Assembly (NCBI RefSeq): GCF_002208115.1 | Contig: NZ_CP020946.1 | Location: 2,604,001 to 2,668,000 of the forward strand | Source of the DNA: Bdellovibrio bacteriovorus | GTDB taxonomy: Bacteria > Bdellovibrionota > Bdellovibrionia > Bdellovibrionales > Bdellovibrionaceae | Length of the DNA stretch: 64,000 bases | Direction: 5' to 3' | Part shown: piece after piece, positions 13,406 through 43,058 of the stretch | Position numbering within the stretch: the stretch's first letter is position 1 | Layout of the letters: each line of letters begins with the position of its first letter | Position numbers and translations under genes: made by a program | Notes under the pieces: generated by a model | Seen by the model: the letters and a program-made list of their open reading frames with translations, nothing else | Told to the model about the DNA's origin: nothing | Database searches by the model: none

Positions 13406-13480
13406 AAAAGGTACCTGCTTACTTTTGCATAAGCTGCGCGTAAGCTGCAGTGCTTCTGCAAAAGTAAGCAGGTACCTTTT
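13406..13480. repeat. 24-bp perfect inverted repeat with short spacer
   Basis: The arm AAAAGGTACCTGCTTACTTT plus TGCA (13406-13429) matches the reverse complement of 13457-13480 without a mismatch. The 27-bp middle contains a direct repeat TAAGCTGC and the pattern CGCG-6-GCAGTG. It lies in the gap between dps and the next gene, close to a separate terminator, and codes for nothing. It could form a long cruciform or a very stable RNA hairpin. Confidence 0.85.
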
Positions 13481-41225: not shown

Positions 41226-41339
41226 AAAGTTCCCTCAAAAAAACAATTACGCTTCCAAAACCCGCCAAAACGACTTCAGCACACCCAAGGCTAGGCTTTA
41301 AGCAACAAGGCGAATCCTAGGTTGAAAGCCGGTACTCCG

Positions 41340-41480
41340 CCTTGGCTTGGGCTATGGCCTTAGTGCCTTGAGCGCGAGTTCCGCAGCGAACCAAATTCCA
41401 CCAGCGGCAGCCACAAAAAAACAAAAAGAGCGAGGACTGTCCGAGCGAGCAAGGCACTAAGGCCATAGCCCAAGCCAAGG
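41340..41480. repeat. inverted-repeat element A, 31-bp perfect arms with conserved core
   Basis: The left arm 41340-41370 (starts CCTTGGCTTGGGCTATGG) is the exact reverse complement of 41450-41480. The 79-bp core contains GCGAGTTCCGCAGCGA and AGCCACAAAAAAACA..GAGCGAGGACTGTCCGAGC. Almost the same core, with different arms, is present at 42882-43019. The element lies between the two TPM genes, 16 bp behind the stop codon of the upstream one. It codes for nothing. As RNA it would form an extremely stable hairpin. Confidence 0.9.
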
Positions 41481-41496
41481 ACCGAGAGTAACGGCA

Positions 41497-42258
41497 TTAC
41501 CAACTGCCGGATGAGCCCCCGCCGCTGAAGCCACCGCCGCCTCCGGACCAGCCGCCTCCGCCGCCACCAGAAGACCATCCCCCACATCCCCCACCGCCGC
41601 CATAGCCACCGCCCCAGCCGCCACCACGAAGATGACGTCCACGACCGCCACCAAAGCGACCCAGGATAGAAATAATGATGAAGAGAATGATGATCACACC
41701 AATAGGAATATCACCGCCGGAACCGTCACGGTCACTTTTTGCAGGAACACCTTCCTGCAATCCGTTTTGTTCTGCGAACTCTTTATCCGCCAGGCGCAGG
41801 ATTTCATGCGTGCCCAGAACGATCCCGGCAGAAAACTGACGGGCGCGGAAAAGCGGCACCACCTGATCACGGATGATCCGGCTGGCGATCACATCGGGAA
41901 TGGCACCTTCAAGGCCCTGCCCGACTTCGATGCGCAGCTTGCGATCATTGGCGGCAATCAGGAACAAAACGCCGTTGTCTTTTTTCTCGTCGCCGAGCTT
42001 CCATTTGTCGGTGACCGCAATAGAAGCCATCTCGATGGGTGTGCCATCCAAAGTGGGAACGATCAAAACCTGAACTTGAGCGACCCCGCGTTTGTTGAAG
42101 TCATAAAGAAGCTGCATCAGCTCTTGACGATCATTGCGGGAAAGATAGCCCACCTCGTCCATCACCGGACCGGTCAGCGTAGGAACCTTAAACTCAGCCC
42201 GGGCGGAAACACCCAGGGCCAAGAAGAAAGCAAAAAAGGAAACTGTCAGTAAACGCAT
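41497..42258 (-). CDS. exported TPM domain protein with Gly-rich tail
   Basis: About 253 residues: a signal peptide (MRLLTVSFFAFFLALGVSARA), a TPM domain (about 25-165, with VMDEVGYLSRNDRQELMQLL, VQVLIVPTLDGTPIEMASIA, LRIEVGQGLEGAIPDVIASR), a membrane segment (about 190-210, IPIGVIIILFIIISILG), and a Gly-rich tail (GGGWGGGYGGGGGCGG and on to SSGSW). This is the usual architecture of YgcG/TPM proteins. The ATG at 42258 has AGGGA just upstream. It follows lemA after 13 bp, the common lemA-TPM pairing. Confidence 0.92.
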   Translation of the reverse strand: MRLLTVSFFAFFLALGVSARAEFKVPTLTGPVMDEVGYLSRNDRQELMQLLYDFNKRGVAQVQVLIVPTLDGTPIEMASIAVTDKWKLGDEKKDNGVLFLIAANDRKLRIEVGQGLEGAIPDVIASRIIRDQVVPLFRARQFSAGIVLGTHEILRLADKEFAEQNGLQEGVPAKSDRDGSGGDIPIGVIIILFIIISILGRFGGGRGRHLRGGGWGGGYGGGGGCGGWSSGGGGGGWSGGGGGFSGGGSSGSW

Positions 42259-42271
42259 GTTCCCTGACAAA

Positions 42272-42862
42272 CTAGAACTTCACTTCCGGAGCTTTTTCAG
42301 CAGAAGCCTTTTCTTCCGGAGTCATATCCCATTGAGGCATTTTTTCGAAGTGATACATGATCGCATTTGTCCAGCTTGTCGGCGGAACGCTGACCTGGTT
42401 GTTAAACACGTTGATAGACTCGATGTATCTTTGGCGAGCAATTGTGATGCGGTTTTCAGTGCCTTCCAACTGCGCCTGAAGATCACGGAAGTTCTGATCC
42501 GCTTTCAACTGAGGATACTGCTCAGACACCACCATCAAACGACCCAAAGCTTGAGACAAGCCACTTTGCGCCTGTTGGAATTTCGCCAACTGCTCTGGCG
42601 TCACTTTGGAAGGATCAATCTGCATAGCCGTCGCTTTGGCACGAGCTTCCGTCACCGCTGTCAAAGTAGCCTCTTCGTGTTTGGCATAACCCTTAACAAC
42701 ATTCACCAGATTCGGAATCAAATCAGCCCGACGTTTGTATTGATTGTTGACCTCAGCCAAAGCCGCCTCAGTCGCATTCTTAGATTGAGGAAGAGATTGA
42801 ATCCCACAACCTGCCAAAAACGGCATCAACATCAAAGCAAGAACTAGAATACGGTTTTTCAT
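42272..42862 (-). CDS. lemA: LemA family lipoprotein
   Basis: 196 residues. The signal peptide ends in the lipobox LAGC with Cys19, so this LemA is a lipoprotein, whereas many have an N-terminal anchor. The helical LemA core is clear: NNQYKRRADLIPNLVNVVKG, YAKHEEATLTAVTEARAKAT, LGRLMVVSEQYPQLKADQNF, RDLQAQLEGTENRITIARQR. LemA proteins occur with TPM proteins in many bacteria; their role is poorly known. The gene and the following TPM gene are flanked on both sides by copies of an inverted-repeat element (41340-41480 and 42882-43019), which leaves only about 20 bp between its start codon and the element. Confidence 0.93.
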   Translation of the reverse strand: MKNRILVLALMLMPFLAGCGIQSLPQSKNATEAALAEVNNQYKRRADLIPNLVNVVKGYAKHEEATLTAVTEARAKATAMQIDPSKVTPEQLAKFQQAQSGLSQALGRLMVVSEQYPQLKADQNFRDLQAQLEGTENRITIARQRYIESINVFNNQVSVPPTSWTNAIMYHFEKMPQWDMTPEEKASAEKAPEVKF

Positions 42863-42881
42863 AAAAACAAAGGCCTCCGTT

Positions 42882-43019
42882 AGATTCGTTAGAACTTATA
42901 GCTGGACATCGACGCGAGTTCCGCAGTGAGGTAAAACAGCCTCCGCGAAGCCACCGCCAAAAAAACACGAACGAGGACTGTCTGAGCGGCGAGGTCCAGC
43001 TATAAGTTCTAACGAATCT
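42882..43019. repeat. inverted-repeat element B, 26-bp perfect arms with the same core
   Basis: The left arm 42882-42907 (starts AGATTCGTTAGAACTTATAG) is the exact reverse complement of 42994-43019. The 86-bp core has GCGAGTTCCGCAGTGA and AGCCACCGCCAAAAAAACA..GAACGAGGACTGTCTGAGC, matching element A nearly base for base at its two ends. It fills most of the 196-bp divergent gap between lemA and the gene at 43059, so the promoters of both must lie in or right next to it; both arms contain TATA-like stretches. Confidence 0.9.
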
Positions 43020-43058
43020 CCCAGTGACCCACAATAAAAACCGAATTATAGTAGTCGG

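Follow-up and report, generated by a model that had tools for sequence, protein, structure and literature searches.

The mechanism closest to the arrangement described here is template switching, or quasipalindrome correction, by which neighbouring sequence is copied in inverted orientation in a single step and perfect pairing is restored (PMC8794818, PMC7202029). Stems can be both created and repaired in this way (PMC8794818). MITEs and other small non-autonomous DNA transposons are small, dispersed and non-coding, with terminal inverted repeats, and the elements presented here resemble them in these respects. However, the ends of a MITE are conserved recognition sites common to its copies, while in our elements the centre is fixed and the ends vary, the arms of each copy matching, above chance level, only each other in the three genomes compared.

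The window analysed is a stretch of 64,000 nucleotides from Bdellovibrio bacteriovorus (contig NZ_CP020946.1, positions 2,604,001 to 2,668,000). Two elements flank lemA and a gene for a TPM-domain protein, and re-examination of the sequence gave their coordinates, core strings and arms as the first-pass annotation had described them. The features are listed below by position in the window and strand.

41309..41337, + strand: decayed inverted copy of TPM-gene sequence beside the left arm of copy 1 (source 41486-41517)
41340..41370, + strand: left arm of copy 1, 31 bp perfect (inverted-repeat and arm-match comparison)
41374..41386, + strand: 5' core of copy 1, GCGAGTTCCGCAG
41387..41429, + strand: variable middle of copy 1, long A-rich class
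41430..41447, + strand: 3' core of copy 1, GCGAGGACTGTCCGAGCG, predicted partner of the 5' core
41450..41480, + strand: right arm of copy 1, ending 16 nt short of the stop-codon end of the TPM gene
41497..42270, - strand: TPM-domain gene (PF04536), right neighbour of copy 1
42272..42862, - strand: lemA (PF04011)
42843..42859, + strand: lemA-start segment outside copy 2, inverted-similar to 43035-43051 (p = 0.007)
42882..42907, + strand: left arm of copy 2, 26 bp perfect (inverted-repeat and arm-match comparison)
42914..42926, + strand: 5' core of copy 2, GCGAGTTCCGCAG
42927..42970, + strand: variable middle of copy 2, long class
42971..42988, + strand: 3' core of copy 2, ACGAGGACTGTCTGAGCG
42994..43019, + strand: right arm of copy 2

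The perfect inverted arms measure 31 bp in copy 1 and 26 bp in copy 2, and the extended arms 36 and 34 nt, each at 94%. Both copies have the same orientation and enclose GCGAGTTCCGCAG and (G/A)CGAGGACTGTC(C/T)GAGCG around a variable middle. In copy 1 the core is predicted to pair as the helix AGUUCCGC / GCG(A)GGACU (A3 alignment of related copies). The predicted folding energies are -81.3 kcal/mol for copy 1 (z = -11.7 against shuffles) and -63.7 kcal/mol for copy 2 (z = -8.0). The local genes code for LemA, the TPM-domain protein, a second TPM-domain protein and a pseudouridine synthase/methyltransferase. Elsewhere in the window there is just one close inverted repeat of at least 20 nt, at 13406-13480. 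This repeat, AAAAGGTACCTGCTTACTTTTGCATAAGC, is 29 bp long and near-perfect, and it has no relation to the core. Its motif AAAGTAAGCAGGTACCTTTT is found again beside the element L213 and a similar one, CACCAGGCACCTTTTT, beside L209 and L217, so that it probably belongs to a second dispersed repeat family of Bdellovibrio.

The host genome is a single contig of 3,769,537 bp (G000), and it was compared with two relatives, G001 (3,782,950 bp), which we take to be B. bacteriovorus HD100, and G006 (3,988,594 bp), presumably B. bacteriovorus Tiberius. Copies were searched for by the core with at most one mismatch and by a covariance model, R1, made of the core and 16 stem pairs. The host genome contains 20 copies, separated from the background by a sharp gap in E-value (1.6e-3 for the 20th copy, about 2 for the next match). 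The proposed pattern holds throughout the genome: each copy has its own flanking arms, and no core stands without them (20 of 20). Hexamer-based gene calls place all 20 between genes, in no fixed orientation relative to them. The special meaning given earlier to the pair bracketing lemA and the TPM gene was not borne out, the 20 elements occurring genome-wide in every gene context; the pair looks like two of the 20, without evidence of a composite unit. Fifteen of the copies share one orientation relative to replication, as judged by eye from their positions and on the assumption that, as in HD100, the ends of the contig mark the origin. This bias may just mirror gene direction.

The core element is present in 23 of 24 genomes of the genus and in 39 of 291 sampled Bdellovibrionota genomes. 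It is also abundant in Coriobacteriia, where two Adlercreutzia genomes have 37 and 53 copies and an Olsenella genome has 21. In a search for the exact core pattern with one genome per species, most of the matches listed were from Coriobacteriia, the others among those listed being Bacteriovorax, Bdellovibrionales, Myxococcales, Planctomycetes and Clostridia records, and nearly all of the matches listed had complementary flanks. The exact pattern was found in none of 2.9 million viral contigs, and two BLAST probes gave no match among 72,556 plasmids; carriage on phages or plasmids was not seen in these sets. No gene family beyond generic ABC transporters constantly adjoins it. No family of Rfam 15 matches it above the curated threshold, and open-access literature searched by core sequence, or for repeats of Bdellovibrio or Coriobacteriia, returned unrelated papers in the first case and nothing matching in the second; subscription journals may hold a description. 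Within Rfam, open-access papers and nucleotide collections the family is thus apparently undescribed. It is real and widespread, and mechanistically odd. In Adlercreutzia (L079, L138, L155 and similar loci) inverted pairs are common, with the 5' sides of the two elements meeting at a palindrome like CTCAACCATGGTTGAG. Such a palindrome also lies beside many single copies there and is possibly a part of the element or a protein site.

Each element consists of one rod. The outer stem P1, with arms of about 20-75 nt, is followed by a small asymmetric internal loop, by an invariant core helix of 8 bp (AGUUCCGC / GCG(A)GGACU, with one A bulged) and by P2, a variable inner hairpin or loop. In a covariation set of ten copies with a short inner hairpin, both sides had changed in 14 of the 16 pairs of P1 and in 5 of the 7 pairs of P2, and 88.8% and 95.5% of cells, respectively, were still paired. 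The covariation score was 0.704, compared with 0.205 for shuffled alignments and at most 0.192 for slid versions. The invariant helix between P1 and P2 was added by RNAalifold; since it never varies in the ten copies, covariation is neutral on it. Arm mismatches in 178 distinct elements comprise 217 G.U and 73 A.C. Isolated mismatches in de-duplicated elements comprise 42 and 15, of which Bdellovibrio contributes 22 and 12, a weak excess, and the other groups 20 and 3. Equal numbers would be expected if neither strand were preferred; selection thus appears to act on one strand, in the form of RNA or of single-stranded DNA. The excess of G.U supports strand selection but does not prove it, because template switching may also skew pair frequencies (PMC8794818). 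We hold with good confidence that selection acts on the fold and the core. The earlier proposal of a structure kept by selection for arm pairing alone is supported in part: compensatory change and the G.U excess agree with it, and the core is in addition invariant.

It is important to consider where the arms come from. Judged from sequence comparison, we hold with high confidence that they are host-derived. Used as queries against G000, HD100 and Tiberius, each arm finds the arms of its own copy, and otherwise chance-level matches and one site. A spacer-like or guide-like origin was rejected, no arm matching another locus of the three genomes above chance or any phage. The exceptional site is the Tiberius ortholog of L211 and L225. 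It has lost the core together with the inner arms, and the outer arms are left as a bare, near-perfect hairpin, probably an intermediate of loss:

L289:1490-1535, the same as G006:C1:1912389-1912433: bare outer-arm hairpin in Tiberius

The position of the elements relative to genes is asymmetric. In both Bdellovibrio and Coriobacteriia, where the right-hand gene is convergent the core mostly lies about 30-60 nt from its stop codon, and where that gene is co-directional the core is somewhat further away, measured to the start codon. Distances to genes on the left are much looser. A right side held tightly to a gene boundary and a loose left side are expected if the left side contains the copy.

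The left flank of each element was aligned with the right flank in inverted orientation; the p-values for flank copies and for the empty sites below are uncorrected. Similar flanks at p < 0.01 were found in 10 of 32 Bdellovibrio elements, against an expectation of 0.3, and in 3 of 16 from Coriobacteriia, against 0.2; under an alternative null 20 of 35 exceeded its 95% point. The similarities, which include both window copies, are mostly collinear with the arms, and such collinear similarity reaches significance in no more than about a third of copies. For copy 1 (p = 0.006; p = 0.0026 for the Tiberius ortholog) the source segment, 41486-41517, contains the last codons of the TPM gene, its stop codon and 3' flank. 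The similarity at copy 2 joins the start of lemA, which adjoins this copy on its left side, with the region upstream of the pseudouridine synthase gene, and has no assigned direction. Decayed inverted copies of the start or end of the neighbouring gene are found at L095, L098 and L118, and the copy at L212 takes in the ribosome-binding site and start of its neighbour. In three copies the right arm overlaps the 3' end of a tRNA-Leu gene by 6-16 nt, and the left arm still pairs with it. Adjacency to tRNA genes is not a general rule, being limited to 3 of 31 Bdellovibrio elements.

Strains lacking a copy were compared, as had been suggested, and full and empty sites could be paired, the right arm being kept at several of the empty ones. 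The element L208 is present in G000 and HD100, and Tiberius is without its core, its left arm and about 95 further nt; the right arm is retained there as GGCCCGGGATTCAACATCCCAAGCC beside the gene and resembles a native terminator hairpin. Six relatives, of other species, do not have the L048 element of G005. A right-arm-like sequence is found at the site in five of them (p = 0.002-0.032; p = 0.098 in the sixth), and no significant left arm lies within 400 nt in any of the six (p = 0.06-0.74). HD100 is without the L214 element and has partial right-arm similarity at the site. In the full/empty alignments the inverted flank copy is visible; divergence is too high to call the short direct repeats that a target-site duplication, as of a MITE or DNA transposon, would leave, and more distant empty sites are mostly too diverged to be informative. 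Two further sites were discarded: one in G010, first taken as empty, contains a degenerate element, and one in G015 (L309) has a partial core match. The earlier suggestion that flanking DNA is copied in inverted form around a fixed core is supported in part. The empty sites hold the right arm and neither the core nor the left arm, and coding sequence or tRNA ends of the neighbourhood are found again, inverted and decayed, beyond the perfect arms.

The arms were described earlier as unrelated between copies. This is true across loci; at the same locus it is not, the arms of both window copies being conserved in HD100 and Tiberius. Orthologous arms in the three strains fall into two classes, differing by 0-6% or, on both sides, by 17-53%; the flanks mostly differ by 1-14% (20-39% in a few left flanks). 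The 5' core is unchanged in 19 of 19 orthologous comparisons, including those in which the arms differ by 17-53%, and the 3' core has rarely changed. The differences in the arms comprise 122 transitions and 129 transversions, about equal numbers. As far as sequence comparison can tell, arm turnover is an episodic replacement with pairing kept, and not gradual compensation. At some loci the right arms change much faster than the flanks. Copying from an unchanged right flank alone fails to explain this; the changes may come from further rounds of template switching, from error-prone copying or from re-insertion. In L210/L235/L240 and other trios of orthologs the arms and middle differ between strains by as much as half, next to an unchanged 5' core and an almost unchanged right flank. 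L216 of G000 and L232 of HD100 have the same gene-side flank, unrelated sequence past the left side and middles of 4 and 44 nt, as if the element lay at a rearrangement breakpoint.

We favour, as the probable reading, a dispersed family of structured hairpins with a fixed core, in which P1 is made locally by fold-back copying and is then subject to selection. In the simplest model, a strand that had copied the right flank and the core would fold back at the core, extend along its own right flank by an intramolecular template switch and then return to the template. The core, together with about 25-100 nt copied in inverted orientation from the right-hand gene boundary, would thereby come to lie to the left of this boundary. 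The outer part of the copy would then decay, and the inner 20-40 bp and the core would be kept by selection on the folded strand. Further template switching probably also maintains the arms and could rewrite both together. We infer that DNA template switching does the copying, that the copying accompanies the arrival of the core at a site, and that the core has a reader, a protein or process. The particular fold-back form of the switch is somewhat favoured as the copying step. The presence of a conserved core in every copy suggests more than a replication event without a dedicated element. The absence of arms shared across loci means that nothing beyond the core moved in Bdellovibrio, unless the arms were rewritten later. 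In Coriobacteriia the inner 12-14 bp of the arms are common within subfamilies, and there the core thus carries part of P1 along. It is a tentative proposal that the core alone is what travels. Equally tentative is the broader picture of a dedicated element which inherits only its hairpin core, the rest being inverted host DNA copied anew at each site, with arms that are rewritten under selection for pairing and a core whose reader, a protein or process, maintains the element across several bacterial phyla.

Several other explanations account for parts of these observations. In a non-autonomous REP/RAYT or other HUH element a transposase would recognise the core hairpin on a single strand and the inverted flank would be a by-product of insertion. 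The dispersed extragenic hairpins, the strand-specific mismatch bias and the close inverted (-,+) pairs seen in several genomes are consistent with this, but G025, the richest genome with 53 copies, has no Y1_Tnp match, and none of the Y1 genes of the host genome has an element nearby. Dependence on RAYT was set aside on these grounds, and the explanation as a whole is unlikely. A pure structure element, whose arms would have diverged from a common ancestor by compensatory substitutions and without flank copying, is still less probable. It fits the compensatory changes, the G.U excess and the invariant core, but not the inverted copies of coding sequence and tRNA ends outside the arms, nor the right arm already present at empty sites. 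Moreover, both arms have diverged by 17-53% next to flanks that differ by a few percent, and similar numbers of transitions and transversions are unlike a gradual route through G.U pairs.

If the elements were a family of small hairpin RNAs, one transcript per copy, whose loop region is constant and whose stem varies, this would explain the strand-specific G.U excess, and the free space on the 5' side could accommodate a promoter. However, there is no consistent relation to gene direction, and the eight small RNAs mapped in HD100 for the attack phase (PMC3627812, Table 2) all lie outside the listed copies; such a family is improbable, to about the same degree as the pure structure element or slightly more so. 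No guide-like target was seen, since the arms match no other locus or phage. Bidirectional transcription terminators are very improbable. About half of the copies begin roughly 10 nt past a stop codon, and Bdellovibrio right arms with a convergent neighbour contain an extra small self-hairpin more frequently than shuffles do (39%, compared with 19%), which is probably the native terminator. This self-hairpin is restricted to such arms and is not a general arm property. The other half of the copies are found in 5' regions, some of them, like window copy 2, between divergent promoters. Termination needs no invariant core helix, and the stems are several times longer than those of usual terminators.

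If the fold-back reading is true, the element builds its ends out of host DNA, the opposite of a transposon, in which the ends are conserved. The elements would then be natural, repeatable sites for studying inverted duplication and hairpin-driven rewriting, and they bear on how long perfect stems arise and remain perfect. From the conservation of the core in both Bdellovibrionota and gut Coriobacteriia, the existence of a cognate protein or process is predicted.

The family can now be compared with other known systems. It resembles REP, BIME and REPIN sequences in having tens of extragenic hairpins per genome, sometimes in inverted pairs, with a strand-specific structure. However, its stems are far longer, site-specific and host-derived, and its constant part lies toward the top of the stem. 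REP/RAYT systems have a conserved hairpin with a tetranucleotide at its foot and a Y1 transposase gene typically flanked by the elements, while here the foot of the stem differs at every Bdellovibrio locus and neither G025 nor the host genome has a Y1 gene so flanked. As in integron attC, the site is folded and pairing outweighs sequence, but attC has conserved R boxes at the base of the fold, while here the bases share nothing between loci and the conserved part is inside. The hairpin lies shortly past a stop codon in about half of copies, as an intrinsic terminator would; such terminators are found downstream of genes, while about half of our copies are upstream of start codons, and the long stem and invariant core helix are unlike them. 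The stem of an intrinsic terminator is followed by a U tract; by eye, a T/A tract directly beside the arm is absent at most arms. The closest likeness is to the products of template switching, in that the left part of the element appears to be an inverted copy of adjacent pre-existing sequence. The described cases concern arbitrary short inverted repeats, whereas here a core conserved across phyla stands at each turning point.
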